NCBI RefSeq assembly: GCF_015101885.1
Contig: NZ_CP062941.1
Coordinates: forward strand, 2,976,001-3,040,000
DNA: 64,000 nt
Direction: 5' to 3'
Source of the DNA: Massilia litorea
GTDB lineage: Bacteria > Pseudomonadota > Gammaproteobacteria > Burkholderiales > Burkholderiaceae_D
The notes under the pieces were generated by a model, which did not search any database, was not told where the DNA came from, and saw only the letters and a program-made list of their open reading frames with translations. Positions 4,755 to 54,976 of this stretch are shown in pieces (within the stretch, counting starts at the first letter, position 1; each line of letters starts with the position of its first letter). Both the position numbers and the translations under genes were made by a program.

Positions 4755-6008
4755 ATGATGATGAACACCCACACCGAGATGTCGCCACGCGCCGCCTGGC
4801 TCCTGATCCTTGCCGCCAGCGCGATCCTCATGATTACGATGGGCGCGCGCCTGACGACCGGCCTGTTCCTGTCGCCGCTGAACACGGCCACCGGCCTGGG
4901 CGTGGCCTCGATCAGCTTCGCGCTGGCGATCGGCCAGTTCATGTGGGGTGCCTCGCAGCCGGTCTTCGGCGCCATTGCCGACAAGTACGGCCCGGCGCGC
5001 GTGATCGTGCTGGGCGCGCTGCTGCTGGCCGGCGGACTGGCGGCCACGCCCTTCGTCAGTTCCGAATGGGGCCTGCTGCTGACCATGGGCGTGCTCTCGG
5101 CCGCGGGCGCCGGGGCGGGCAGCTTCTCGATCCTGATCGGCGCCACCGCCCAGCGCCTGCCGCCCGCGCGCCGGCCCTTTGCATCCGGCTTCATCAATGC
5201 CGGCGGCTCCTTCGGCCAGTTCGTGTTCTCGCCGCTGATGCAATTCCTGATCGCCGGACCCGGCTGGATCATCGCCATGTTCACGATGGCGGCCACCACC
5301 TTGCTGACCATTCCGCTGGCCTGGCTGATGCGCGGCCGCAAGGCCACGCAGCCGACGGTGGCCGCGGCGGGGGCGGCCCCGGTCGTGGGCATCGGCCTGA
5401 CCCAGCAGCTGCGCGAAGCGCTGCGCGACCGCAGTTACCTGTGCCTGCACGCCGGTTTCTTCACCTGCGGTTTCCATATCGCTTTCCTCGTGACCCACCT
5501 GCCGGGCGAAGTGGCGCTGTGCGGCCTGCCGGTCGGCGTGGCGGGCACGGCGCTGGGGCTGATCGGCCTGTTCAATATCGCCGGCAGCCTGAGTGCCGGC
5601 GCGCTGTCGACACGCTATCGCATGAAAAACCTGCTGGCCCTGATGTACTTCAGCCGTGCGCTGATCATCGCGGTCTACCTGATGGCGCCGAAGACCGCCT
5701 GGACTTTCTATATCCTCGCGGCCGCGCTCGGCTTTACCTGGCTGGCGACGGTGCCGCCTACCGCCGGCCTGGTCGGCAAACTGTTCGGCACGCGCTACCT
5801 GGCGACCCTGTTCGGCCTGACCCTGCTGTCGCACCAGATCGGCGGCTTCTTCGGCGCCTGGCTGGGCGGCCTGTCCTTTGTCCGGTTCGGCGACTACAGC
5901 TGGATGTGGTACGCCGACATCGCGCTGGCGCTCGCAGCCGCCCTGGTCAACCTGCCGATCCGCGAAGCGCCGGTGGTGCGCGCCGGCGCGCCGCTGGCGA
6001 AGGCCTGA
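4755..6008 (+). CDS. MFS transporter
   Basis: A 417-residue inner-membrane protein with 12 predicted helices, typical of the major facilitator superfamily. Motif A is present between helices 2 and 3 as GAIADKYGPARV (about residues 74-85). The N-terminal half ends with a cytoplasmic loop around residues 195-215 (RGRKATQPTVAAAGAA), and the second half begins with a conserved Gly-rich helix. Residue pattern and length resemble the oxalate/formate antiporter-like or cyanate-permease-like group, but the substrate cannot be read from sequence. Its stop overlaps the start of the next small gene by one base, so the two are translationally linked. Confidence 0.85.
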   Translation: MMMNTHTEMSPRAAWLLILAASAILMITMGARLTTGLFLSPLNTATGLGVASISFALAIGQFMWGASQPVFGAIADKYGPARVIVLGALLLAGGLAATPFVSSEWGLLLTMGVLSAAGAGAGSFSILIGATAQRLPPARRPFASGFINAGGSFGQFVFSPLMQFLIAGPGWIIAMFTMAATTLLTIPLAWLMRGRKATQPTVAAAGAAPVVGIGLTQQLREALRDRSYLCLHAGFFTCGFHIAFLVTHLPGEVALCGLPVGVAGTALGLIGLFNIAGSLSAGALSTRYRMKNLLALMYFSRALIIAVYLMAPKTAWTFYILAAALGFTWLATVPPTAGLVGKLFGTRYLATLFGLTLLSHQIGGFFGAWLGGLSFVRFGDYSWMWYADIALALAAALVNLPIREAPVVRAGAPLAKA

Positions 6009-6390: not shown

Positions 6391-6945
6391 ATGGCATCGA
6401 AAAAAATTGCAATCGTGGTGGGCAGCCTGCGCATGGGTTCGTACAGCGGCAAGCTGGCCAAGGTGATGAGCCAGCTGGCGGAGGGCAAGCTCGACATGGA
6501 AGTGGTCGAGATCCGCGACCTGCCGCTGTATGACCAGGACATCGACACCGAGACCCCGCCGGCCGCCTACACGGCCTTCCGCGAGCGTATCCGCGCGGCG
6601 GACGGCGTCCTCTTCATCACCCCGGAATACAACCGCTCGATCCCGGGCGCGCTGAAGAACGCGATCGATGTCGGCTCGCGCCCCTACGGCAAGGCCGCCT
6701 GGAGCGGCAAGCCCTGCGCCATCGTCAGCCAGTCGCCGGGCGCGCTCGGCGGCTTCGGCGCCAACCACCACCTGCGCCAGACGCTGCCTTTCCTGAACAT
6801 GCCTGCGATGCCGGCGCCGGAAGCCTATCTCGGCGGCATCGCCGACAAATTCGATGGCGAGCACCTGAAGGACGAGTCGCTGCGCGCCTTCCTGCAGACC
6901 TTCGTCGATACCTTCGCCGCCTGGGTCGAGCGTCACGCCGGCTGA
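6391..6945 (+). CDS. NADPH-dependent FMN reductase family protein
   Basis: A 184-residue flavodoxin-fold oxidoreductase that uses NAD(P)H to reduce FMN and, in relatives, quinones, azo dyes or chromate. The phosphate-binding loop appears at the N-terminus as VVGSLRMGSYSGKLA. The family signature TPEYNRSIPGALKNAID sits at about residues 75-91, and SQSPGALGGFGANHHLR follows at about 112-128. It has its own ribosome binding site (GAGGGG) and a strong downstream terminator, so it is probably monocistronic. The physiological acceptor is unknown. Confidence 0.92.
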   Translation: MASKKIAIVVGSLRMGSYSGKLAKVMSQLAEGKLDMEVVEIRDLPLYDQDIDTETPPAAYTAFRERIRAADGVLFITPEYNRSIPGALKNAIDVGSRPYGKAAWSGKPCAIVSQSPGALGGFGANHHLRQTLPFLNMPAMPAPEAYLGGIADKFDGEHLKDESLRAFLQTFVDTFAAWVERHAG

Positions 6946-6963
6946 TCCCGGCCCACAGCCTTC

Positions 6964-7011
6964 ACGGCCCCGTCGCCTGCGCAGTGCCGCGCAGGTGACG
7001 GGGCCGTTTTC
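6964..7011 (+). terminator. Rho-independent terminator after FMN reductase
   Basis: A 19-bp stem with one mismatch (left arm starts ACGGCCCCGTC, right arm ends GACGGGGCCGT) and a 6-base loop, directly followed by TTTTC. It lies 19 bases after the stop codon. Confidence 0.9.
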
Positions 7012-7209: not shown

Positions 7210-7824
7210 ATGTATCCATTTTCCCAATCGGTAACTCCGGCAGTGCGCACCCACCTGGACGCGCAGACCGCCTTCATGAACGACATGTCGAAATCGCTGT
7301 TCCAGTCCTTCCAGCAGATGTGCAACCTGAACATCCAGCTGGTCCAGACGATGCTTGAAGAAACGGCGCTGGCCAGCCAGCAGATCCTGACGGCCGACCG
7401 CCAGACCGAAGTACTGAGCGCGGCCGCATCGCGTGCCCAGCCTGCTACCGAAAAGCTGCGCGCCTACCAGCAGCACATCTCGCGCGTGGCGGCCGACGCC
7501 CAGGTCGAGCTCGCGCGCGTGACCGAACAGCACGTGCAGAACACGACCCGTACCGCGCGCGAGCTGGCCGACGAGGTGGCACGCAACGCCTCCGAAGAAA
7601 CCCAGCGCGGCCTGCGCCAGGGCCAGGACACGCTGCAGCGTTTCGTCGATCCTTTCAGCACCGGCAACGGCCATGACCGCGCCAAGGGCAATGGCGGCGC
7701 GGGCGCCAGCATGCAAAGCAGCGGCGCCGGCGCCAGCATGCAAAGCAGCGGAGCAGGGGCAAGCCAGGGCGGAAGCAGCCAGCGTCCGGACACCCCGGCC
7801 GGGAAGGGCACGCCCGGGGCCTGA
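7210..7824 (+). CDS. Phasin family protein
   Basis: A polyhydroxyalkanoate granule surface protein, about 204 residues from the ATG at 7210. That start is chosen because GAGG sits six bases upstream of it, whereas the ATG at 7198 has no binding site. Residues about 1-155 are a long amphipathic helix region rich in Ala, Gln and Glu (QSFQQMCNLNIQLVQTMLEE, ELADEVARNASEE), as in phasins that coat PHA granules. The C-terminus is a Gly/Ser/Ala-rich tail containing a perfect protein repeat, GAGASMQSS twice, encoded by two 27-bp units. PHA synthesis genes are not in this window. Confidence 0.85.
   Translation: MYPFSQSVTPAVRTHLDAQTAFMNDMSKSLFQSFQQMCNLNIQLVQTMLEETALASQQILTADRQTEVLSAAASRAQPATEKLRAYQQHISRVAADAQVELARVTEQHVQNTTRTARELADEVARNASEETQRGLRQGQDTLQRFVDPFSTGNGHDRAKGNGGAGASMQSSGAGASMQSSGAGASQGGSSQRPDTPAGKGTPGA
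7696..7749 (+). repeat. 27-bp tandem repeat in the phasin tail
   Basis: Two adjacent 27-bp units (7696-7722 and 7723-7749) differ at a single base, and a third, diverged copy follows. They encode GAGASMQSS repeats in the disordered tail, so copy number may vary between strains without breaking the frame. Confidence 0.85.
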
Positions 7825-11207: not shown

Positions 11208-13532
11208 ATGCCCATGGACCGTTCCCCGACCTCCCTTCCCGAACAGCAGAGCGCTCCCGCGCCCGTAAGCCGCAGGCCGGCACGGCGCGGCCTCGGTACC
11301 TGGCTGGCGCTGGCCTTCTCGCTGCTGTCGATCATCCTCACCGTGCTGATGGTCGAGGTGGTCGACGTGGCGGCCACCGGGCAAATCGAGACCAGCATCG
11401 GCAACGGCCTGCGCGAGCTGGCGGTGCAGGCCGCGGACAAGCTCGACCGCGGCATGTACACGCGCTACCGCGAGGTCAAGCTGCTGGCACAGCGGCGCGA
11501 CCTGGCGCCAGGCAGTAACGCCCTGGCCGACCGCCGCGCCGTGCTCGACAGCATTCGCGAGTCCTACGGTTTCTACGACTGGATCGGCATGGCCGGCCTC
11601 GACGGACGGGTGCAGGTGGCCGCCGGCCGCCTGCTGGAGGGCGCGGATGTGTCGCAGCGGCCGTGGTTCCGCAACGCGCAGAAGGGCATCTACGTCGGCG
11701 ACGTGCACGAGGCGCTGCTGCTGGCGAAACTGCTGCCGCGCCAGGACGGCGAACCGCGCCGTTTCGTCGACCTTGCCTTCCCCTACAAGGATGCGCAGGG
11801 CAAGACGCTGGGCGTGCTCGGCGCCCACCTGTCCTGGCAATGGGCGCGTTCGATCGAGCGCTCGGTGATCGCGCCGCTGGCCACGCGCGGCAAGGTCGAC
11901 GCCCTGATCGTCGGCAGCAACGGCAGCGTGCTGCTCGGCCCCGCCGGCCTGCAGGGCAAGACGCTCGATCTCGCCAGCCTGCGCGCGGCCCAGCGCCAGG
12001 ATGCCGGCTACCTGGTCGAGCGCTGGCCGGACGGCACCTCCTATCTCGTCGGCTTCAGCCGCAGCCACGGTTTCGAGGACTATCCGGGCCTCGGCTGGAC
12101 CGTGCTGGTGCGCCAAGCCGAGCTGGAAGCCTACGCGCCCGCCAAGGCGCTGCGCCGGCGCGCCCTGGTCAGCGGGCTGGCGCTGGCGGCGCTGTTCTCG
12201 ATCGTCGGCGTGGTGCTGGCGCGCTACATCACGCGCCCGCTCGGGCGGCTGGTGAGCGAGGCCGAGCGCATTCGCGGCGGCGAGAACGTGCAGCTGGCCT
12301 CGGGCGCGGGCAGCTATGTCGAGGTCGAGACGCTGTCGGCGACCCTGAACGCCCTGCTCAGCGACCTGCGCCGGCGCCGCCACGAACTGCGGGACGTGAA
12401 CGCCAGCCTCGAGGCGCGGGTCGAGGACCGCACCCGCGAACTCGAACGCGCCCTGGTCGCGGTGCGCGCCAGCGAGCAGCGCATCGGTGCCATCGTCGAG
12501 GCGGCCCAGGATGCCTTCGTCGGGGTCGACATGCGCGGCCTGGTCACGGACTGGAACAGCGCCGCCGAGCGCATGTTCGGCTGGAAGCGTGCCGAGGTAC
12601 TGGGCTGGCCGATGCCGGAACTGATCGTGCCCGAGCGCTTCCGCCCCAGCACCCATAAAGCCATCGAGATGGTGCGCGCCACCGGCTACAGCCCGCTGCT
12701 GGAGCGCCGCGTGGAGCGCGTGGTGATCGACCGCCAGGGCGTGGAGTTCCCGATCGAGATGACGGCGGGCCTGGCGCAAGGGGTCGAGGGCAGTTTCTTC
12801 GCCGTCTTCCTGCACGATATCTCCGAGCGCAGGAAAGTCGAGCAGCTGAAAAGCGAGTTCGTGGCCACCGTCTCGCACGAACTGCGCACGCCCCTGACCT
12901 CGATCCGCGCCTCGCTCTCGATGCTGGCCGACGGCATCGCCGGCGACCTGCCGCCCGATGTGGCGGGCCTGGTGCGGATTGCAAACGAAAGCTGCGAACG
13001 CCTGGTGCGCCTCGTGAACGACGTGCTCGACATCCAGAAGATCGAGGCCGGCGGCATGCACTTCGAGCGCCACGCCCAGCCGCTGCTGCCGGTGGCCGAA
13101 CATGCGCTGGCCGGCATGCAGGCGTATGCCGATCAACTGGGCGTCAGGCTCCAGCTCGACTGCGAGGAGGCGGCGCGCGGCCTGTCGGCGACGATCGACC
13201 AGGACCGCCTGGTGCAAGTGTTGACGAACCTGCTGTCGAATGCGGTCAAGTTCTCGCCGCGCGGCGGGGCCGTGACGCTGGCGCTGTGCCGGCATGCGGA
13301 CGGCGCACGCCTGTCGGTGCGCGACCAGGGCGCCGGCATCCCGCCGGCCTTCCGGCCGCGCGTGTTCCAGCGCTTCGCCCAGGCCGACGGCGCCGACACC
13401 CGCCAGAAGGGCGGCACGGGGCTGGGCCTGTCGATCAGCAAGAGCCTGGTCGAAGAACACGGGGGGCAGATCAGTTTCGAGACGCAGCAGGGGCAGGGCA
13501 CCGTTTTCCACGTCGACCTGCCGCCGGCGTAA
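11208..13532 (+). CDS. Membrane sensor histidine kinase with cache, HAMP and PAS domains
   Basis: A 774-residue hybrid of sensing and kinase modules. After a short basic N-terminus there is a membrane helix (about residues 30-52) and an extracytoplasmic double-cache-like region (about 55-315, with YGFYDWIGMAGLDGRV and WFRNAQKGIYVGDVHE). A second membrane helix (about 322-342) leads to HAMP (YITRPLGRLVSEAERI), a coiled coil and PAS (about 420-530). HisKA follows, with phosphoacceptor SHELRTPLTSIR near residue 560, then HATPase_c with N-box LLSNAVKFSPRGG and G-box GGTGLGLSISK. There is no receiver domain. The likely partner regulator is not adjacent, but the CheY-like protein at 17714-18109 is a candidate. 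The ligand is unknown. Confidence 0.93.
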   Translation: MPMDRSPTSLPEQQSAPAPVSRRPARRGLGTWLALAFSLLSIILTVLMVEVVDVAATGQIETSIGNGLRELAVQAADKLDRGMYTRYREVKLLAQRRDLAPGSNALADRRAVLDSIRESYGFYDWIGMAGLDGRVQVAAGRLLEGADVSQRPWFRNAQKGIYVGDVHEALLLAKLLPRQDGEPRRFVDLAFPYKDAQGKTLGVLGAHLSWQWARSIERSVIAPLATRGKVDALIVGSNGSVLLGPAGLQGKTLDLASLRAAQRQDAGYLVERWPDGTSYLVGFSRSHGFEDYPGLGWTVLVRQAELEAYAPAKALRRRALVSGLALAALFSIVGVVLARYITRPLGRLVSEAERIRGGENVQLASGAGSYVEVETLSATLNALLSDLRRRRHELRDVNASLEARVEDRTRELERALVAVRASEQRIGAIVEAAQDAFVGVDMRGLVTDWNSAAERMFGWKRAEVLGWPMPELIVPERFRPSTHKAIEMVRATGYSPLLERRVERVVIDRQGVEFPIEMTAGLAQGVEGSFFAVFLHDISERRKVEQLKSEFVATVSHELRTPLTSIRASLSMLADGIAGDLPPDVAGLVRIANESCERLVRLVNDVLDIQKIEAGGMHFERHAQPLLPVAEHALAGMQAYADQLGVRLQLDCEEAARGLSATIDQDRLVQVLTNLLSNAVKFSPRGGAVTLALCRHADGARLSVRDQGAGIPPAFRPRVFQRFAQADGADTRQKGGTGLGLSISKSLVEEHGGQISFETQQGQGTVFHVDLPPA

Positions 13533-46915: not shown

Positions 46916-47887
46916 CTACACCCCCACCGTCTCCCGCAACGGCGCCGCATGCTCGTGATGCGAGCGCGCATGCAGCAGGTGGCGCTGCAGCGTCGCGCGC
47001 GTGCTCTCGCCGATGGCGCGCCAGTATTCGCGGCGCTGGGCGGCACGCTTGCGGTGCTTCGAGGGCATGTCGGCCAGCGGTTTCAGGTAGAAGGGCAGGG
47101 CGACCAGCCAGGCCCTGCCGGGCAGTTCGACGCCGCCCAGGATCTTCCAGAAGCCGTCATAGGCATTCACGAACTGCTTGACCTCCTCCGGATCCCAGGC
47201 GATATGCGAGGTGGCCTTCACGGCCAGGACCTGCTCCAGGCCGACCGCCTGCGCCAGGCCCTGCATCGCCGCGAAGCAGAAGAAGCTCGGCGAATTGTTC
47301 GGGAAGCCGGTCTCGAAGGCGTCGAAGGCCTCGCCCGAGTCGGTCCAGCGGCCCTGGTTGCGCGCGATGAAAGGTACGAGCGAAGGCCCGGCCGCTGCCG
47401 GCACGCCGGCGATCGCAGCGTCGATCCACGAAAAGGACAGGCGGTGCAGCACCTTGCCGTCGGCGATCAGCGCGATCGTCAGGTCGCCCTCGGCATTCAT
47501 GCGCGAGGCCATCTCGAGCCGGATCAGGAAGGCGTGTTCGCCGACGCCGTGCTGCCACAGGGTCAGGCCGCCCTCGGCATACACGGCCGCCTTGTAGGCC
47601 GCGTCGAAGGTCGCCTCTTCGAAGCGGTAGTGCGACAGCACGCATTGCACGCGCTGGCGTGCGCTCAGACCCCGCAGCAGGTAGCCGCGGTGGCTCAGGT
47701 GGTGAAAGGGGTCGTCGTTCGGCGCGCGCATCACGTGGTTGCGGTAGACGTCGAGCCGGCACAGCGCGGCGTGGGCCCGGTAGTAGCGCAGAACGCGGGC
47801 GCTGCGCAGTACCGTCAGCAGCCAGGACGAGAAGGACAGCGCGCTGCGGCGGGCCAGCCAATAACGAGTCAGGTGAGCGAAGATCAT
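46916..47887 (-). CDS. VirK/YbjX family protein (DUF535)
   Basis: A 323-residue soluble protein from the ATG at 47887, preceded by GGAGC. The family pattern is seen in HLSHRGYLLRGLSARQRVQCVLSHYRFEE (residues about 68-96, shown only as a guide to the SxRxYLxxxLsxxQRxxxxxxHY layout), ERMNAEGDL-like EMASRMNAEGDLTIALIADG and FFCFAAMQGL. VirK/YbjX proteins are linked in enterobacteria to antimicrobial-peptide resistance and virulence-factor export, but the molecular function is unclear. It is divergent from the ancestral start of the gst gene. Confidence 0.85.
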   Translation of the reverse strand: MIFAHLTRYWLARRSALSFSSWLLTVLRSARVLRYYRAHAALCRLDVYRNHVMRAPNDDPFHHLSHRGYLLRGLSARQRVQCVLSHYRFEEATFDAAYKAAVYAEGGLTLWQHGVGEHAFLIRLEMASRMNAEGDLTIALIADGKVLHRLSFSWIDAAIAGVPAAAGPSLVPFIARNQGRWTDSGEAFDAFETGFPNNSPSFFCFAAMQGLAQAVGLEQVLAVKATSHIAWDPEEVKQFVNAYDGFWKILGGVELPGRAWLVALPFYLKPLADMPSKHRKRAAQRREYWRAIGESTRATLQRHLLHARSHHEHAAPLRETVGV

Positions 47888-48165
47888 GGAACGCTCCGTG
47901 GTAGACGGCGGGTTGCGGACAGCTTCATGGTGTCCCAGCCTGCCGGGTCCAGCGGTGAGATTGCTCAATGGAAACAAATTCTCTGTAGCAATATTTTGGA
48001 CAGGCTCTTCCCCGTCTTGCGTACGCATCGTCAGCATCGTGTCCTGTTCCCAAGTCTGCTTTTCTTGTCGAAAATCTACATTCCCAATTGCAAGATTAGC
48101 ACGGCGCGCGCGCTGCCTCGCCAAATTCTGCTCCATACTGCCTTTCCCAGGCAGAGGAGGACGCG

Positions 48166-48189
48166 ATGGCATACGAACTGTTCTATTGG
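48166..48189 (+). pseudogene. Displaced original 5' end of the gst gene
   Basis: The host start region left behind by the insertion: GAGGAGG, five bases, then ATG and codons for MAYELFYW. The last six of these codons (YELFYW) fall in the 18-bp attachment core that recurs at 53482. Beyond 48189 the sequence is element DNA, and the frame soon stops (about 48312). The continuing host gene is at 53500. Confidence 0.85.
48172..48189. repeat. attL core (18 bp)
   Basis: Left copy of TACGAACTGTTCTATTGG. To its left is host DNA with the old gst start. To its right is the element arm, which contains TGCACCAT (48200-48207) and the integrase ATG. Confidence 0.88.
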
Positions 48190-48205
48190 TTTAGAATAGT
48201 GCACC

Positions 48206-49873
48206 ATGAACCCTACCGCTTTCAGTTACATACGCTGGTCTTCGGCTCCGCAAGGCAAAGGCCACACCGAAGAACGACAGACCGACATCGCCGAGGAATA
48301 CGCCAAGGCTAAGGGACTAGTCCTCGATACCACGCGCAACATGCGTGACGCTGGCGTATCGGGCTGGTCTGGTAGGAACATCAGCGACGGTGCACTTGGA
48401 GCCTTCATCAAGGCGATTGAAGCGGGCGACATTGCCCCCGGCTCCTTCCTTCTAATCGAAGACATCGACCGTCTATCGCGCCTGCCTGTGATGGATGCAC
48501 TAGCGGTCTTCCAACGGATCATCGGTGCTGGTATCACCATTGTGACGCTCCGTGACAAACAGGAGTACAGCTTGGAGCGGCTGAAAGAAGACTGGACACC
48601 GCTTATGCCGATCCTGTTTGCAATGGCACGCGGGCATGGCGAGAGCGAGCGTAAGTCCGACCTTATCGGCAAGGCATGGCGAAATAAGAAATTAGCAGCA
48701 GCCAGCGAGGCCCGTACTCCCATCGGCGACAACGCGCCTATGTGGCTGAGCTACTCCCCAGATAAGGGCTATACGCTGAAAGAGAAATGGACGCCGATAA
48801 TCGAGAGAATGTTTCAGTTGTACATCGACGGTCACGGCCTGATAGCGATTTCACACATTCTGAACGATGAAGGGGTACGCACTTCCCGTGGAGGCATATG
48901 GGGGCCGAGCAGCTTGGACAGGGTGCTTAATAACCGTTCTGTAATTGGCGAGTACCAGCCTCGCACTAGGAAAGGTAAAGTGCGAGAGAACGCCGGGAAC
49001 CCCATCCCCCGGTACTACCCGCCAGCCATTGACGAGGAAACTTTCTACCGTGCCCAGCGTGTACGCGAGAGCAGGAACAGAACAGGTACGTCCAAGCAGT
49101 CGAAGAACTTCAATCTTTTTCAGGGAATAGGGCAGTGCCGCTTATGCGGTTCGACGCTTCATTCAGTGAGCAAGGGTGCACCGCCGAAGAATCACACCTA
49201 CCTTCGCTGTTCCTCCGCGAAGAAGCGAGTATGCAAGGCCGGGTACATACGACTTGATGCGGCGGAAGCGGTATTCCGGGAAGTGTTAGCCAAGATCGAA
49301 TCTGCAAAATCACTCGTCCATGACGCCAGTGCCGAGCTTGTACGCCAGCAGTCCGAGCTAAGAGGCCGGATAGACGAGCATCGCCAGCACTTGAAGCAGC
49401 TTGTCGAAGTCCTGCAAACGAACACATCCAGCACGATCCTAGGCGAAGTGGTACGGCGTGAAACGGCGATCACCGACCTGACGAAGCAAGTAGACGAAAT
49501 CTCGCTGGCGCTGGCGAGTAATGCGATAACCGACAAGGAATCGTTCTTCGCCTCGCTCGATCTAGTCTCGTACGAAGGCCGCAACCGGGCGAATGCACTG
49601 CTTAAAGAACTACACATCACCATCCGGGTAGCAACCGAGAAGCCCCACCGCTACCACGTCTATCAGGACGAGGAACCATTGTTCGATCTGGTCAAGCGGG
49701 CAGATAAGGAAAAGCCGGTGTTCTACCCTGCCAATAATAAGCAAAGGGCAATCATCATGCGGCAGGAAGGTACGTTCACACCCCTAATTAACTTTGATGA
49801 AGACGCTTTCGACGGAGACGCGGAAGGCGAGCAGTACGAGAACGAAGGGTACGACAGCCGGGAATGGTACTAG
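48206..49873 (+). CDS. int: Large serine recombinase (site-specific integrase)
   Basis: A 555-residue recombinase that integrates and excises the element through a 5'-phosphoserine intermediate. The resolvase domain starts with YIRWSSAPQGKG, giving the catalytic serine at about residue 12, with LIEDIDRLSRLP as the arginine-rich active-site helix near 84-95. A Recombinase domain follows (LIAISHILNDEGVRTSRGGIW), then a zinc ribbon with CRLCG and YLRCSSAKKRVCKAG (about 310-350) and a coiled coil (about 375-440). The start ATG lies in the attP arm with no Shine-Dalgarno; a TAGAAT -10-like box is 8 bases before it. Translation may be near-leaderless. Confidence 0.95.
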   Translation: MNPTAFSYIRWSSAPQGKGHTEERQTDIAEEYAKAKGLVLDTTRNMRDAGVSGWSGRNISDGALGAFIKAIEAGDIAPGSFLLIEDIDRLSRLPVMDALAVFQRIIGAGITIVTLRDKQEYSLERLKEDWTPLMPILFAMARGHGESERKSDLIGKAWRNKKLAAASEARTPIGDNAPMWLSYSPDKGYTLKEKWTPIIERMFQLYIDGHGLIAISHILNDEGVRTSRGGIWGPSSLDRVLNNRSVIGEYQPRTRKGKVRENAGNPIPRYYPPAIDEETFYRAQRVRESRNRTGTSKQSKNFNLFQGIGQCRLCGSTLHSVSKGAPPKNHTYLRCSSAKKRVCKAGYIRLDAAEAVFREVLAKIESAKSLVHDASAELVRQQSELRGRIDEHRQHLKQLVEVLQTNTSSTILGEVVRRETAITDLTKQVDEISLALASNAITDKESFFASLDLVSYEGRNRANALLKELHITIRVATEKPHRYHVYQDEEPLFDLVKRADKEKPVFYPANNKQRAIIMRQEGTFTPLINFDEDAFDGDAEGEQYENEGYDSREWY

Positions 49874-50044
49874 CAGCAACCAGCACCAGCCCACGGCAAG
49901 CTACCGCCCCTTTCCAGATAGCCGGATTTACTTAGAATCGGCTCGCGTTCGATTATCGAAAACGCTAGGGAATTTGCACGAATACAGGCTCCGGCGACGG
50001 TACGCATAGGGATATACCGTCACGAGTGTATGTAATAGCCGGTT

Positions 50045-50062
50045 CGTTACAATACGTTACAA
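50045..50062. repeat. CGTTACAA direct repeat, possible operator
   Basis: Two copies of CGTTACAA spaced by exactly 10 bases, about 40 bases upstream of a consensus -35 element. Spacing fits side-by-side protein binding on one DNA face. Confidence 0.5.
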
Positions 50063-50102
50063 ATTAGTTTACCCATTATACCTTAAAGTGTGCTAGCAGC
50101 TA

Positions 50103-50131
50103 TTGACAGCAAGCTACTTTGGGTGTATACT
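50103..50131 (+). promoter_or_regulatory. Near-consensus sigma-70 promoter
   Basis: TTGACA, 17 bases, TATACT. It is the best promoter match seen in the window. It lies about 120 bases upstream of the 71-residue gene and should drive the small-gene cluster. Confidence 0.8.
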
Positions 50132-50254
50132 CACAGGGTAACTAAGTCTTGCGCACCGTGATCGTACCTGCGTGCCACGACCCCTTAATCCCCTGAAAAT
50201 CTGAACTGGTAGCAATCCCGCTATCCGTTCGTCCATACGAAAGGAAGTAACAGA

Positions 50255-50470
50255 ATGACAACGCAATTCGCTCGCCCTGAATTTGGCAAGCCACTACGAA
50301 CCCCGGACTACTACGTGCAGTGCCGGGCATACGTCGCATCCCTCCGCTCGACTACTACCATGCGCGAGATTGCAAGAAAGATGAACCAACTAGGCTGGAC
50401 GACTCCAATGGGCCTATCTTGGACGCGTCAAGCAGTAATGAACCTGATGCGTAAGCACCAGACCAAATAA
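50255..50470 (+). CDS. Small DNA-binding protein resembling a recombinase HTH segment
   Basis: A 71-residue protein with AAAGGAAG upstream of the ATG. The C-terminal half, REIARKMNQLGWTTPMGLSW followed by TRQAVMNLM, has the layout of the helix-turn-helix found in large serine recombinases (IAxxLNxxGxxTPxGxxWTxxxVxxxL). There is no catalytic domain. It could regulate the strong promoter upstream or act as a directionality factor for the integrase. Both are inference. It is the first gene of the cluster, followed after 19 bases by the 135-residue gene. Confidence 0.75.
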   Translation: MTTQFARPEFGKPLRTPDYYVQCRAYVASLRSTTTMREIARKMNQLGWTTPMGLSWTRQAVMNLMRKHQTK

Positions 50471-50489
50471 ACGAAAAGGAACTCAAACA

Positions 50490-50897
50490 ATGAGCAAACA
50501 ATCACAAGCAGTTACCACGACCGTAGCCGAGCAGCAGCCCCAAAGCCTGTATGTCATCGGCCCAGTTGCCAACGCGCTGGAACAGGCCAACGCCCATATC
50601 CGAGCCGGGTACGTATTCGATACGAACCTGCCCGTAGAATTCTTCGGTGCAACGGGCATGATGAGCTTTACGCTCAAGTTGGGTAGCCCTACCGAACGCT
50701 TCATTGAAGCGGCAAAGGTAGCAACGGCTGAGGCCATGCAGGTGCAAGAGGTGCAGCGCCAACGCGACATTGAACGAGCAGCCGCCGAACTAGTAGCGGC
50801 CCGTGACCGTGCAGCAGCACAGGCAGCGATCCAAGCGAAAGTGAAAGCAGCGGAAGCCGAGCTTGCTGCGCTCAAAGCAGCAGCAGGGGCCGCATGA
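50490..50897 (+). CDS. Element protein of unknown function with C-terminal coiled coil
   Basis: A 135-residue protein preceded by AAAAGGAA. Residues 1-65 contain mixed beta-like sequence (LYVIGPVANALEQANAHI, PVEFFGATGMMSFTLKL), and residues about 70-132 are a continuous Ala/Glu/Gln-rich helix with heptads (QVQEVQRQRDIERAAAEL, KVKAAEAELAALKAA). No family is recognised. Its stop overlaps the next start by 4 bases. Confidence 0.7.
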   Translation: MSKQSQAVTTTVAEQQPQSLYVIGPVANALEQANAHIRAGYVFDTNLPVEFFGATGMMSFTLKLGSPTERFIEAAKVATAEAMQVQEVQRQRDIERAAAELVAARDRAAAQAAIQAKVKAAEAELAALKAAAGAA

Positions 50898-51079
50898 TGG
50901 GCTGCAATACTCGTCTAGTGAATGCCCGAGCAAGGCGCATTGTCATTAAGCGCCCACGGCCAGCAGTGACGGTACAACCAAAAGAAGCACGTACAACGGC
51001 GATGATCGCGGCATATCTTCGTGCCATTCAACGGAACAGCCCTATCCCAGCCGTAGAAATCACTTTAAACGCGATTTAA
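50894..51079 (+). CDS. Small basic element protein
   Basis: A 61-residue basic protein (MMGCNTRLVNARARRIVIKR), starting in an ATGA overlap with the gene upstream. It contains RARRIVIKRPRP and a helical AMIAAYLRAIQRN. It may bind nucleic acid, but no family is recognised. It is called because of the overlap and because a noncoding stretch follows directly. Confidence 0.55.
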   Translation: MMGCNTRLVNARARRIVIKRPRPAVTVQPKEARTTAMIAAYLRAIQRNSPIPAVEITLNAI

Positions 51080-51500
51080 GGCACCTAGGAGCCGTTTAAA
51101 CGGTTCGGTAAGGGGCAAGCCTACCAAGACCCTTGCAGAGCCTTATAGAGCGTTTAAACGAGTCTAGCCATTCCCGGCAGCGTACCGGGTACTTTTCCCG
51201 GCAACATGGTAAAGTCCCGCCCCTCGCATTCGACGAGTTACGGATTAAAAATTCAGCGGGGCAATACGCGAATCCCCTATGATACGCACCTTTTCCGGCC
51301 CAAGTCAAGCAAAAGTGGGCTGAATCGGTGCTTCATAGGGCAAATTACCCTATTTATTGCCGAAAAGGAAATTTGATTAAAGATAAGGATTAAGTTGTAT
51401 CTACCTAGTTAGTAACTATTAAGTTGTAAGACAGGGTAGTTCAACTAAGTAGCCAACCCTACACCCAGCACATTACAAATAAGAGAGAGGAAGACCAAGC
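51080..51500. other. Noncoding region with palindromes, candidate replication origin
   Basis: About 420 bases without a supported gene, AT-rich towards 51340-51490. It contains CCGTTTAAACGG (12-bp palindrome, 51092-51103), CGTTTAAACG (51151-51160) and a related CTTTAAACG at 51063. A short hairpin ATAGGG-loop-CCCTAT sits at 51335-51353. ATTAAGTTGTA occurs twice (about 51390 and 51418). Position directly before the Rep-like gene fits a double-strand origin, but this is inference. Confidence 0.5.
51395..51422 (+). promoter_or_regulatory. Candidate promoter of the Rep-like gene
   Basis: TTGTAT, 16 bases, TATTAA, about 80 bases upstream of the start codon, in an AT-rich stretch. Moderate match only. 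Confidence 0.4.
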
Positions 51501-52085
51501 ATGAAGAAGGACGGAACGTACATTACAGACGCAAACGAAGGCTTGCACAGTCAGGTGAATTACAGGAAGGCGAAGCAGATGCTTCTGACTCACCCCTACA
51601 CCAACGCAAGGCTGTACCACCTTGTACTGACAGGATCGGAGAGCAGAGAAGATTACAAATGGGCCATTGACCTACTGTGCCGGGAGCTTCGTGCAAACGA
51701 TATGCCCGTGATGTGGAAAGCCTGCTACGAGCGAGACGAGAAGAAGCGGTTCCACGCGCACTACTTCCTACTGATCGAAGCCCATCACAGAATCCCCTGC
51801 CAGATCATGCGGTATCGAAAGGGTGAGTTCCTTGAATCGCGGTTATCGGAGCGTGGCATAGCATTCACCATTGCCCCACCCGGCAAGGAAGTGCACCACT
51901 ACAAAGGCAAGCAGCAGAACTACGCCTTCGTGCCGAAGAAGGCCAGCCCCAGGCTGGACGACGCGCTTGTCTGGGTCAGTTATTTGTTCAAAATGCGCAG
52001 CAAGCAGGACGTAGAAGGCCAGATTTACACTAGCAGCACCAATCGCGGATCGGAGAAGGTACGCCCGGCGAAGGAAGCAGCATGA
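51501..52085 (+). CDS. HUH-type replication initiator candidate (inovirus Gp2-like)
   Basis: A 194-residue protein with GAGAGAGGAAG upstream of its ATG. It has the pattern of small rolling-circle Rep proteins: motif RFHAHYFLLIE with His85-x-His87 (HUH metal site), preceded by CYERDEKK, and a late WVSYLFKMRSK with candidate nucleophile Tyr161 and Lys164. The order and the YLxK motif resemble the Gp2-type Rep of filamentous phages. Rep enzymes of this kind nick one strand at the origin. If real, the excised circle could replicate. The family assignment rests on motifs only. The stop overlaps a 14-codon remnant frame. Confidence 0.68.
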   Translation: MKKDGTYITDANEGLHSQVNYRKAKQMLLTHPYTNARLYHLVLTGSESREDYKWAIDLLCRELRANDMPVMWKACYERDEKKRFHAHYFLLIEAHHRIPCQIMRYRKGEFLESRLSERGIAFTIAPPGKEVHHYKGKQQNYAFVPKKASPRLDDALVWVSYLFKMRSKQDVEGQIYTSSTNRGSEKVRPAKEAA

Positions 52086-52126
52086 ACGCCGCCGCCATTA
52101 AACGGGCGATGTCGTCACATCCGTAA
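52082..52126 (+). pseudogene. Possible truncated gene start after rep
   Basis: An ATGA overlap with the Rep stop opens a frame of 14 codons (MNAAAIKRAMSSHP) that ends at TAA in 52124-52126. Such overlaps usually mark real downstream genes, so this may be the remnant of a lost gene. It may also be chance. Confidence 0.3.
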
Positions 52127-52322
52127 TCGCAAACGACCGCAATGTTTGCTCCGCCGTAAGCATGCGGTTCAGACGAAACGGGTCGTCTACTTTTGGGAAC
52201 TCATGCTGGATCACTGCTTTAGCAACGCCATGCGGAGAGTCATCGTCCGGAGCAAGGTCGATAGTAATTTCTTTCCTACTTGCAACGCCAGCAAGAGTGT
52301 AGGAAACACGGTACTTCGTCAT
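52098..52322 (-). CDS. Small element protein, minus strand
   Basis: A 74-residue soluble protein on the opposite strand to the rest of the element, from the ATG at 52322 (no clear binding site). TKYRVSYTLAGVASRKEITIDLAP and AEQTLRSFAITDVTTSPV have natural protein character with alternating beta strands (the first fragment is residues 2-25, given partly). No family is recognised. It is convergent with the Rep-like gene and divergent from the resolvase. Confidence 0.5.
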   Translation of the reverse strand: MTKYRVSYTLAGVASRKEITIDLAPDDDSPHGVAKAVIQHEFPKVDDPFRLNRMLTAEQTLRSFAITDVTTSPV

Positions 52323-52456
52323 AAGGAAGGCTTGCAAGCGTTGATGGTCATCCCCGAATCATAACAGTTTTCCAACTGCCTGTACCGACATACAACTAGG
52401 TCAAGCCTGTCGGGAATCGACCGAATTCCACCATCCCTGAAACTACCCAGAATACA

Positions 52457-52490
52457 CTGTTGGAAAATTAGGGGTTGCAATTCCCAACAG
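52457..52490. promoter_or_regulatory. 34-bp inverted-repeat site, probable recombinase binding site
   Basis: Outer arms CTGTTGG and CCAACAG are perfect inverted repeats spanning 34 bases, the length of a typical resolvase/invertase dimer site. It overlaps the -35 region of the resolvase promoter, suggesting autoregulation. A related palindrome, CAGTT-TTCC-AACTG, sits at 52365-52378. Confidence 0.55.
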
Positions 52491-52503
52491 TCGAGTATAT
52501 TCT
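52475..52503 (+). promoter_or_regulatory. Candidate promoter of the small serine recombinase gene
   Basis: TTGCAA, 17 bases, TATTCT, 37 bases upstream of the start codon at 52541. The upstream half overlaps the 34-bp inverted repeat. Confidence 0.6.
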
Positions 52504-52540
52504 AACACCCATTGATAACACCCCTAACGAAAGGAAGTAC

Positions 52541-53122
52541 ATGAGCATTTTTGCATACGGAAGGGTCAGCCGTTCTGACCAAAGCACCGAGAATCAACGC
52601 CTTGAAATTGAATCAGCAGGTTACGCGGTCGATTACTGGTATGCCGACGAAGGCGTTAGCGGTAAGGTATCGGCCATGCAGCGCCCACAGTTCGCTAAGA
52701 TGCTCGGCCAGATTCGTGACGGTGAGACGCTGGTAGTATCGAAGCTGGATCGTATCGGACGTGACGCCATGGACGTAGCCGCTACGGTCAAGATGCTGAA
52801 AGAGCGCAAGATCGAAGTAATCGTTCTGCAACTGGGCAAGCTCGACCTGACCAGCCCAGCCGGTAAGCTGATGATGACGATGCTGGCCGCTGTAGCTGAA
52901 ATGGAAAGGGACTTGCTAGTAGAACGTACCCACGCCGGACTTGCCCGTGCAAAGGCCGAGGGTAAGACGCTGGGCCGTACTCCGAAGACCACGCCAGAAC
53001 AACAGGTGAAAATGAAAGCCGACTATGCCAAGGGCGAGACGGTAAGCGCACTGGCCCGCGAGTACAAGGTAAGCCGTGCCACCGTGCTTTCGATTGTAAA
53101 TGCAGAGAAGGCAGCAGCCTGA
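52541..53122 (+). CDS. Small serine recombinase (resolvase/invertase family)
   Basis: A 193-residue recombinase starting at ATG 52541 with AAAGGAAG upstream. N-terminal FAYGRVSRSDQSTENQ places catalytic Ser at residue 10. LVVSKLDRIGRDAMD is the active-site arginine segment, and AVAEMERDLLVERTHAGLARA forms the long dimer helix (quoted residues within about 120-140). The C-terminal HTH is VSALAREYKVSRATVLSIV. It is of the Tn3-resolvase/Pin type and would act on the 34-bp site upstream. In this element it may resolve dimers or control plasmid-like maintenance. It is a second recombinase distinct from the integrase. Confidence 0.93.
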   Translation: MSIFAYGRVSRSDQSTENQRLEIESAGYAVDYWYADEGVSGKVSAMQRPQFAKMLGQIRDGETLVVSKLDRIGRDAMDVAATVKMLKERKIEVIVLQLGKLDLTSPAGKLMMTMLAAVAEMERDLLVERTHAGLARAKAEGKTLGRTPKTTPEQQVKMKADYAKGETVSALAREYKVSRATVLSIVNAEKAAA

Positions 53123-53469
53123 TAGGCGCTAGGAAGACACCACAGCCCCGCTATGGCACGAACGGGCACGGGTTGATACCAACCCAGCCTGAACGCTCCT
53201 AGCCCCTCCTAGAGCCTCTGGTAGATATTTACTTTTCTGGCAACACTTTGTCTTATACCGGCCCCCGCCCTATCAAGTCGCCCGTTCGACCCCGCAGTAT
53301 TTTCCCTTCCCGGCCCACGGCCGCCCAGAAATACTTTTCTGGATTCTGTACCAGTTCCCTGCACAGACCCTAGTTCAAAATTTGAGTTTTGTATTTTTAT
53401 CGGCAAAGTCAATTCCGGTAGTGATGTAACCTGATGCTGTATGTACACCCACCGAAGGAGAAATTTATC
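53123..53469. other. Noncoding right end of the element
   Basis: About 350 bases with no supported gene. TACTTTTCTGG occurs twice as a direct repeat (near 53230 and 53332). The stretch 53370-53460 is AT-rich and ends in a good ribosome binding site (AAGGAGAA) that now serves the gst gene. Any promoter for gst must now be here, but none is clear. Confidence 0.45.
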
Positions 53470-54174
53470 ATGGTGCAATCGTACGAACTGTTCTATTGGC
53501 CCGGCATCCAGGGACGGGGCGAATTCGTCCGGCTGGCGCTCGAGGAAGCGGGAGAGGATTACGAAGACGTGGCGCGCGGGCCGGGCGGCACGGACGCGCT
53601 GATGGCAGCGCTGAAGGAAGGCCCGACGCCCAGTTTCGCGCCGCCATTCCTGCGTGCCGAAGGCATGACGATCGGCCAGACGGCGGCGATCCTGCTGTAT
53701 CTGGGCGAGCGCCACGGCCTGGCGCCGCGGGAGCCGGCGGGGCGCCTGTGGACGCATCAGTTGCAGCTGACGATCGCCGACCTGGTCGCCGAGGCCCACG
53801 ACACGCACCATCCGGTCGGCAGCGGTTTGTACTACGAGGACCAGAAGCAGGAAGCGCTGCGCCGCGCGCAGGATTTCACGTCGGCGCGCATCCCGAAATT
53901 CTTCGACTATTTCAGCCGCGTCCTCGGCGAGAAGGATTACCTGCTCGGTCCTGAGCTCACCTATGCCGACCTCTCGCTGTTCCAGGTGCTGGAAGGGCTG
54001 GCCTACGCATTCCCGCAAGCGACTGCCCGCGCGCTGGCGCAGCATCCGAACCTGGAGGCGCTGCGGCGGCGCGTTACGGCGCGTCCGCGCATCGCCGCTT
54101 ATCTGCGTTCGCCGCGCCGGATTCCGTTCAACGACGACGGGATTTTCCGGCGCTATCCGGAACTCGACAGTTGA
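53470..54174 (+). CDS. Glutathione S-transferase family protein with element-derived start
   Basis: A 234-residue cytosolic GST. N-terminal thioredoxin-like half: YELFYWPGIQGRGEFVRLAL (active-site Tyr-like position) and GQTAAILLYLGERHGL; helical C-terminal half with YLLGPELTYADLSLFQVLEG, the N-capping motif. The start codon, first four codons (MVQS) and binding site (AAGGAGAA) come from the inserted element; the host original read MAYELFYW at 48166. The protein therefore differs only in its first residues. It is convergent with the aldo/keto reductase gene, one base apart. Confidence 0.93.
   Translation: MVQSYELFYWPGIQGRGEFVRLALEEAGEDYEDVARGPGGTDALMAALKEGPTPSFAPPFLRAEGMTIGQTAAILLYLGERHGLAPREPAGRLWTHQLQLTIADLVAEAHDTHHPVGSGLYYEDQKQEALRRAQDFTSARIPKFFDYFSRVLGEKDYLLGPELTYADLSLFQVLEGLAYAFPQATARALAQHPNLEALRRRVTARPRIAAYLRSPRRIPFNDDGIFRRYPELDS
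53482..53499. repeat. attR core (18 bp)
   Basis: Right copy of TACGAACTGTTCTATTGG. The element arm to its left includes ATGGTGCA (53470-53477), the inverted partner of TGCACCAT at 48200. Host gst codons continue to its right. Confidence 0.88.
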
Positions 54175-54175
54175 A

Positions 54176-54976
54176 TCAATCCCAATCCGGCGCGAAGTCC
54201 GGGCTGACCAGACGCTCGCCACGATCGAGTGCGTCGATGGCGGCCAGGTCCTCCGTTCCCAGCACCAGTGCGCGCGCCGCCAGGTTGCTCGCCAAATTCT
54301 CGCGCCGGGTCGAGGATGGGATGACCGTGTAGCCCCGCGCCAGCAGCCAGGCCAGCGTGACCTGGGCGGCTGTCGCGTTCCGGCGCGCCGCGATCCTGCC
54401 GATGACCGGGTCGGCGAGTACCTTGCCATAGGCGAGCGGCATGTAGGCCGTCAGGGGAATGCCGTGTTCGCGGGCGAAGGCGGCCACCGTGCGGTTCTGC
54501 AGGTAAGGATGAAGTTCGACCTGGTTGGTGGCGATGTTCGCCGCCCCGACTGCATCGATCGCTTCCTTCACCAGCGGGATCGTGAAGTTCGAGACGCCGA
54601 TCGCGCGCGTCAGGCCCAGGTCCCGCGCTGCGAGCAGCGCCGCCATCGATTCGGCCACCGGCACCGCGCGGCTTGGGGACGGCCAGTGGACCAGGGTGAG
54701 GTCGAGCCGTTCGAGGCGCAGCTTGCGCAGGCTTTCCTTCAGGCTGGGGATCAGGGCGTCGCCGGCCAGGTGTTCGGTCCAGATCTTGGTGGTGACGAAG
54801 ACCTCGCCGCGCGGCACGCCGCTCTCCGCCAGGGCCTGGCCGACTTCAGCCTCGTTGCCGTAGATCTGGGCGGTGTCGATGTGGCGGTAGCCGAGGTCGA
54901 GGGCGTTGGCGACGCTGTCGATGGCGGCCTGGCCTTGCAGGCGGAAGGTGCCGGCGCCGATGAGGGGCATGTGCAT
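54176..54976 (-). CDS. Aldo/keto reductase (2,5-diketogluconate reductase-like)
   Basis: A 266-residue NADPH-dependent reductase from the ATG at 54976 (AGGA six bases upstream). The catalytic tetrad is visible: Asp34 and Tyr39 in [12 protein letters not shown], Lys64 in VTTKIWTE and His97 in LTLVHWPS. The NADPH-binding [14 protein letters not shown] is near the C-terminus. It is close to DkgB-type enzymes that reduce methylglyoxal or 2,5-diketogluconate. It lies 20 bases downstream of the MFS gene and is co-transcribed with it, opposite the LysR gene. Confidence 0.93.

Follow-up and report, generated by a model that had tools for sequence, protein, structure and literature searches.

We identified a 5,310-bp (~5.3-kb) integrative element in the genome of Massilia litorea (assembly GCF_015101885.1, contig NZ_CP062941.1), which appears to integrate at codons 3-8 of gst, a GST-family gene, and to replace the 5' end of that gene with a start of its own. 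We put at roughly 0.8 the probability that the element integrates with replacement of the gst 5' end and encodes its own replication. The window analysed is the whole stretch of 64,000 nt from 2,976,001 to 3,040,000 on the forward strand, and all positions below refer to it unless a locus is named. Genomes carry G-numbers (G000 is the genome of the window) and the loci fetched from them L-numbers.

An integrative element at the start of gst

Two exact direct copies of TACGAACTGTTCTATTGG, 18 bp long and without extension on either side, bound a block with a G+C content of 53.1% compared with 66.7% in the remaining window (Table 1). The gene int, encoding a large serine recombinase, begins 16 bp inside the left core. 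The sequence thus agrees with the original prediction, which had described identical 18-bp cores around a lower-G+C block with a large serine recombinase at one end. When positions 47501-54200 were shuffled 200 times with dinucleotides preserved, no exact direct repeat exceeded 15 bp (mean of the longest, 12.2). Exact repeats of at least 18 bp also occur elsewhere in the 64 kb, for example at 7702/7729, 26624/27380 and 30869/33976, and therefore the repeat alone is no proof of an element; the empty sites are. When the host flanks are joined, an open gst start is obtained (MAYELFYWPGIQGRGE), and in three genomes (G075, G080 and G028) both flanks align to adjacent DNA with an overlap of 18-20 bp, the pieces being 83-86% identical. 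Since the flanks are contiguous in these genomes, they represent empty sites with an uninterrupted gst start, as had been foreseen together with the break in codons 3-8 and the restoration of gst by the joined flanks. The worry that no empty site might exist anywhere can be dismissed, given these sites and a native-type start, with one or two codons ahead of the core, in 48 of 60 full-length gst genes. On this comparative evidence the block is confirmed as an integrative element. A tRNA gene as the integration target was ruled out, as there are none in the 64-kb window.

At the right junction, an element-supplied GGAG (53457-53460) ends 9 nt ahead of the ATG at 53470. This ATG and the codons for VQS directly precede the host YELFYW codons, so that MVQS-YELFYW replaces MA-YELFYW. 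The integrated gst is open and full-length (53470-54174), reading MVQSYELFYWPGIQ..., and a short stub with the native start is still present at the left junction. It had been proposed that gst is broken by the element; the native start is indeed interrupted, but the gene is not lost, since the integrated copy is open from the element's ATG. Probably gst is re-headed by the element, and inactivation is not likely. Upstream of the new start, the sole sigma-70-type match scores 9 of 12 and no strong promoter was seen; over the region there are 4 sigma-70-like matches against a mean of 3.7 in shuffles, which is no excess.

The joined element ends form a dyad consisting of TCATGGTGCA, 32 bp and TGCACCATGA, the putative attP. 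One arm contains the start codon of int and the other the replacement start codon of gst. Of 5000 mononucleotide shuffles of this attP, 18 gave an inverted repeat with arms of at least 10, and the element of a second genome, G007, has identical arms and the same 32-bp gap. The centre of the dyad is a CT at positions 12-13 of the core (48183-48184), where the crossover is predicted to occur. The two cores of G007 differ at positions 9 and 11 only, as expected if the crossover lies at position 12 or later. In other serine integrases, the attP arms are contacted by the zinc domain, and the arms of this dyad may be such contacts.

Table 1. Features of the window element and of its junctions with gst.
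Feature	Position	Strand	Remarks
Native gst 5' end (ATG 48166, MAYELF...)	48166..48183	+	Left at left junction with own upstream region; matches empty sites in G075, G080, G028
attL core, 18 bp	48172..48189	+	Predicted crossover CT at 48183-48184 (dyad centre)
Right arm of attP dyad, TGCACCATGA	48200..48209	+	Contains int start codon, 48206
int, large serine recombinase, 555 aa	48206..49873	+	PF00239, PF07508, PF13408 over cut-off; phrog_95 integrase, 1e-64
Match to a sigma-70-type promoter (11 of 12) ahead of h71	50103..50131	+	No regional excess of such matches
h71, 71 aa	50255..50470	+	Weak likeness to recombinase-domain/HTH_62 helix-turn-helix; PF07508 0.0019, PF20552 0.0096, both below cut-off
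p135, 135-aa backbone protein	50490..50897	+	No match above curated cut-off, none in PHROGs
61-aa open reading frame	50894..51079	+	No PADLOC match
Intergenic, lower G+C, GTTTAAAC palindromes ahead of rep	51080..51500	+	Candidate origin region
rep, 194-aa Y1-type HUH protein	51501..52085	+	H85xH87, Y161xxK164; likely replication initiator
79-aa open reading frame (74 aa from ATG 52322)	52098..52337	-	No PADLOC match
inv, small serine recombinase, 193 aa, with HTH_7	52541..53122	+	PF00239 4e-38, PF02796 2.5e-6
Left arm of attP dyad, TCATGGTGCA	53468..53477	+	Contains replacement gst start codon
gst as present	53470..54174	+	Host codons preceded by ATG and codons of the element (MVQS); GST_C_3 3e-31
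attR core	53482..53499	+	Predicted crossover CT at 53493-53494

Recurrent replacement of the gst start in the genus

Matches to gst were found in 62 of the 62 genus genomes searched, and starts were read in the 60 with a full-length copy, including the window's own; G029 and G082, with weak or partial matches only, were left out of the count. A four-codon M-[VA]-x-[SP] start at the same boundary was found in 12 of the 60 (G000, G004, G007, G024, G025, G033, G063, G065, G077, G078, G079 and G085). ATCATGG is found at the start of eleven of these 12 element-type genes, and the 19-mer GGAGAAATTTATCATGGTG occurs at the gst start of both the window and G085. A gst tree was made by a quick method from the 31 genomes with available full-length gst DNA, of which 9 have an element-type start. 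Native starts are interspersed with element-type starts on this tree, and the start-type label needs 6 changes, of which the starred branches force at least 5; each change could be either a gain or a loss, and an equally low number was reached in 38 of 500 shuffles. At the level of sequence, these data show that the 5' end of gst has been repeatedly replaced at one nucleotide boundary.

Both junctions were seen in G000 and G007 only. The left junction of G007 consists of native upstream DNA, the core and then an integrase start, and the right junction has the four-codon start MVHP, with ~8.2 kb between the two. The integrase N-terminus, within a 169-aa frame, is 71% identical to that of the window over 128 aa. 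Seven other genomes (G024, G025, G063, G077, G078, G079 and G085) have one core copy only, allowing up to 4 mismatches, and thus look like sites that retained the right end after the rest was lost; the search for a left core covered the element-type genomes apart from G004, G033 and G065. No backbone proteins were found between gst and the DUF535 gene in these seven genomes or in G004 and G065, part of the G085 stretch being unreadable, and G033 stood outside this check because its contig ends there. A type VI secretion system hcp gene (PF05638) lies between gst and the DUF535 gene in L078, L084 and L090 (G007, G024 and G085), where gst has the element-type start; in L078 it is followed by a weak murein-endopeptidase match (PF03411).

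A small backbone with a putative replication initiator

Within the element, int is complete, with its Resolvase, Recombinase and Zn-ribbon domains each above the Pfam cut-off. The h71 gene has the same neighbours in relatives and belongs to the backbone; its product is a possible directionality factor or regulator. p135 was present in 11 of the 15 genomes tested, 14 of which had been picked for a Rep match, and always within ~1.2 kb of rep; plasmid records gave no match to it. The small serine recombinase encoded by inv is likely to be a resolvase of replication multimers. The original prediction had regarded the contents as mostly unassigned, but most genes can now be assigned (int, the helix-turn-helix-like h71, the family protein p135, the HUH Rep and the small serine recombinase) and their order recurs in relatives. 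That no phage or defence gene is recognisable in this copy was borne out: there is no recognised cargo, no phage structural gene among the seven element open reading frames scanned with Pfam and PHROGs, and no PADLOC match for the 61-aa and 79-aa frames.

Rep is likely a Y1-type HUH protein of the Rep type and a replication initiator. E77, H85xH87, Y161xxK164 and K168 are invariant columns in a 96-row alignment, the HxH and YxxK motifs being likewise invariant in an alignment of 12 rows. Plasmid Reps have motifs in the order I-II-III and Mob proteins in the reverse order (PMC5714925); by this criterion, the order of HUH followed by Tyr, here HxH and then YxxK, indicates the Rep type rather than the Mob type. 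The model predicted from the 96-row alignment has a pLDDT of 90.7 and places Y161 in a helix (150-163), whereas an earlier model from 16 sequences had a pLDDT of 62.8 and an unspecific Foldseek list. Fold matches of the predicted model include Inovirus Gp2, and the named viral ones are replication proteins. In sequence-based searches, Rep had no profile match to solved structures up to E 10. It scores 16.4 bits against PF23343 (REP_ORF2-G2P), below the curated cut-off of 27.8, and 47 of the 96 family members match this profile at E ≤0.1 (best 9.7e-7). None of the seven element open reading frames matched a relaxase family in the Pfam scan; oriT was not searched for. A comparison upstream of rep at six loci gave no shared origin motif; of the 9-mers listed, a simple repeat was the only one in common. 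Taken together, the serine integrase, the gst target and the likely replicating nature of the element that were originally put forward are supported.

Close relatives among phages were also looked for. Phage records contained no relatives of Rep, and IMG/VR pattern scans with Rep, the Rep alignment and the integrase as queries confirmed no relatives of Rep or the integrase in viral contigs. For int, 24 phage records matched at E 1e-10, all below 60% identity. One unannotated 12.7-kb human gut virome scaffold (L160, MT836130.1) carries a small serine recombinase in addition to a related large serine integrase (36%); with nine window proteins as queries, no others matched. Among the matches listed, 13 of 120 Rep relatives have a longest contig of 4.9-5.3 kb, the size expected of complete element circles, which may be chance.

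Relatives, integrase modules and cargo

The Rep profile matched in 17 of 392 genomes of the bacterial family, in 4 of 44 genera, and in 12 of the 61 genomes of our first relatives set. We found the full backbone of h71, p135, rep, small serine recombinase and large serine integrase at eight other loci of the genus: L066-L072 (G021, G025, G006, G003, G020, G014 and G005), which are seven of 18 stretches fetched for a rep or int match (two of the 18 are one locus seen twice), and L099. In the window, L066 and L067, int is a neighbour of h71 and has the same orientation; L068-L072 and L099 have it at the opposite end from h71 and with reversed orientation. The remaining eleven of the 18 stretches are partial loci, with int and inv without rep (L073, L075, L078 and L079), int alone (L082 and L083) or rep without a serine integrase (L074, L076, L077, L080 and L081), L073 and L074 coming from a single genome but from separate contigs.

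The integrase module seems exchangeable, because a second Rep locus in the window's genome, with a Rep 45% identical, carries a tyrosine integrase (PF00589), and a 23-kb plasmid of Massilia forsythiae has, besides a Rep family member and a RepA of its own, two genes with the annotation of tyrosine-type recombinases. The second locus was seen twice, at 6,461-7,006 (L080) and 5,181,133-5,181,678 (L081) of G000:C1, a contig whose ends overlap by ~13.8 kb at 99.8% and which is probably an untrimmed circle. It also contains a small serine recombinase, a PDC-S33 candidate and, judged by eye, an IS3-like insertion.

Ten open reading frames of relatives were scanned with Pfam (nine cargo-type frames and the L080 integrase), and eight of the cargo-type frames with PADLOC, of which three matched. 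A retron-type reverse transcriptase (RT_V, 1e-98) lies between rep and inv in L068 (7936-9111). A protein of L072 matches a TIR effector (2e-15), its best Pfam match above cut-off being a nucleoside deoxyribosyltransferase domain, with Pfam TIR below cut-off. The PDC-S33 candidate (3e-112; RelA/SpoT domain) stands beside inv in L080, the tyrosine-integrase locus of the window's genome. The backbones of some relatives thus carry inserted genes, among them likely phage-defence genes. A cation-efflux protein is encoded in L066 and a protein with a response-regulator domain in L069, and the two cargo proteins of L099 had no match in these scans.

With regard to integration sites, a convincing pair of att repeats was found for L066 only (80.8% over 125 bp, spacing 6,665 bp), and none stood out for L067-L072 and L099. 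The L066 repeats, at 5057-5181 and 11722-11846, flank the G021 element and read like the end of a host gene, which suggests gene-end restoration at another target. The integrases of L073 and L075 are 45-46% identical and have a common flank upstream of int that, by eye, we take to resemble the start of a comM/Mg-chelatase-type gene.

Proposed mechanism and comparison with known elements

We propose that Int would recombine the attP of the circle with attB in codons 3-8 of the chromosomal gst. Upon integration, the arm of attP opposite the int start would supply gst with an ATG, codons and ribosome-binding site, so that gst should be readable both with the element integrated and with it excised. 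Excision may be helped by a small protein, for which h71 is the candidate. The excised circle would then be replicated by Rep as a rolling circle, probably from an origin near rep, and inv may resolve the multimers. Transfer from cell to cell could occur through an outside helper or by transformation, and we hold any one of these routes with less confidence than integration and 5'-end replacement.

The integrases of dusA islands and of SXT are tyrosine recombinases. In the dusA islands, the 5' end of dusA is exchanged for one from the island, with IMEVchUSA3 providing both a promoter and an N-terminus (PMC8409611, PMC4482086); SXT does the same at prfC, as cited in PMC8409611. Like these elements, the window element occupies a protein-coding gene at its 5' end and gives it a new start and N-terminus. 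However, a new promoter has been shown for dusA islands, whereas expression of gst is predicted here from sequence only, and IMEVchUSA3 is mobilizable by IncC and targets dusA, whereas the window element has a large serine recombinase and targets a GST-family gene. A serine integrase and a target at a translation start also occur together in a prophage of Mycobacterium abscessus, an element of another type, whose attB-29 lies at the sixth codon of a SpoU-like gene; its authors call the reconstitution of expression unclear (PMC10654092). Site-specific integrative and mobilizable elements (IMEs) with serine recombinases are described in a review as disrupting their target genes (PMC5704250). Serine-recombinase IMEs such as Tn4451 and the rumA elements resemble the window element in small size, serine integrase, short direct repeats and, for most, site specificity, but IMEs have relaxases and the site-specific ones reportedly a disrupted target, in contrast to the Rep motif order and re-headed target described here. 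Both integration and rolling-circle replication, as proposed for the window element, are features of the actinomycete integrative and conjugative elements such as pSAM2. These carry a TraSA-type transfer gene, which was not recognised in the window element.

The suggestion that the element might be of a kind not yet described is therefore too strong, since published 5'-end-replacing elements (PMC8409611, PMC4482086) and a serine attB at a sixth codon (PMC10654092) mean that the principle is already known. In the literature searched, among the matches listed and mostly open-access, neither this element family nor an integrase targeting gst was described, nor did we meet an element that combines a serine integrase, the gst start and an HUH-Rep backbone.

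Alternative explanations

The element may be a satellite or decayed relative of a filamentous (single-stranded DNA) phage, with G2P-like replication and packaging by a helper inovirus. The PF23343 matches across the Rep family, the Inovirus Gp2 match with its HUH-type fold and motif set, and the listing of serine recombinases for inoviruses (PMC6813254) point that way. We nevertheless consider it unlikely, as the window Rep stays below the PF23343 cut-off, its relatives are lacking in the phage records and IMG/VR scans, and the element has no recognised phage genes. Zot had no match anywhere in the window's genome and was found in 5 of 61 genomes (4 of 14 well-known genomes used as a control gave matches). 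Of the 11 Rep carriers of the same genus within those 61, G014 and G031 have it, so that a resident filamentous helper is not general; a helper could also reside in another cell. Less probable than a phage satellite, in our view, is an IME whose HUH protein is a relaxase and which is mobilized by a co-resident conjugative system. One Rep family member is named a relaxase/mobilization nuclease domain protein in UniRef, and no transfer genes of its own were recognised in the element by Pfam, as would suit IMEs, which have few. The motif order, H85 and H87 before Y161, is however that of Reps (PMC5714925), the named viral fold matches are replication proteins, and the single plasmid relative found was typed non-mobilizable.

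Lower again we place a plasmid that was captured by a serine integrase and is now a static chromosomal remnant. The Rep relative on the M. forsythiae plasmid and the several element-type gst genes without adjoining element genes would fit a remnant, but int, the attP dyad, rep and the small recombinase are all open in the window, the same gene set recurs at eight other loci, and the gst tree demands at least 5 changes of start type. It is very improbable that the MVQS-type starts are ordinary variation and not marks of integration. Such variation could account for the 9 of 12 element-type starts that lack backbone proteins beside gst, and both junctions are known from two genomes only; yet it would have to produce a base-exact common boundary, ATCATGG in 11 of 12 genes, the 19-mer in both G000 and G085, the two junctions seen in G000 as well as in G007, and a tree on which native starts are interspersed. 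Our preferred reading remains that an element coding for its own replication integrates and replaces the gst 5' end.

Conclusions

In conclusion, our analyses provide a clean case in which an attP arm of a serine integrase would double as the coding start of its target, so that integration need not cost the host its gst. Past integrations may remain readable as replaced gene starts after the elements have decayed; such a start is present in 12 of the 60 gst genes examined. Tentatively, and with more doubt than belief, we suggest that the int-h71-p135-rep-inv backbone could represent an undescribed lineage of Oxalobacteraceae elements: gene-repairing integrated guests that leave by rolling circle, travel as single-stranded DNA via a helper, serve as vehicles of phage defence and exchange serine and tyrosine integrases. 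A minimal backbone of ~5 kb, which in some relatives carries retron reverse transcriptase or TIR-type genes, makes the spread of small elements without transfer genes testable.

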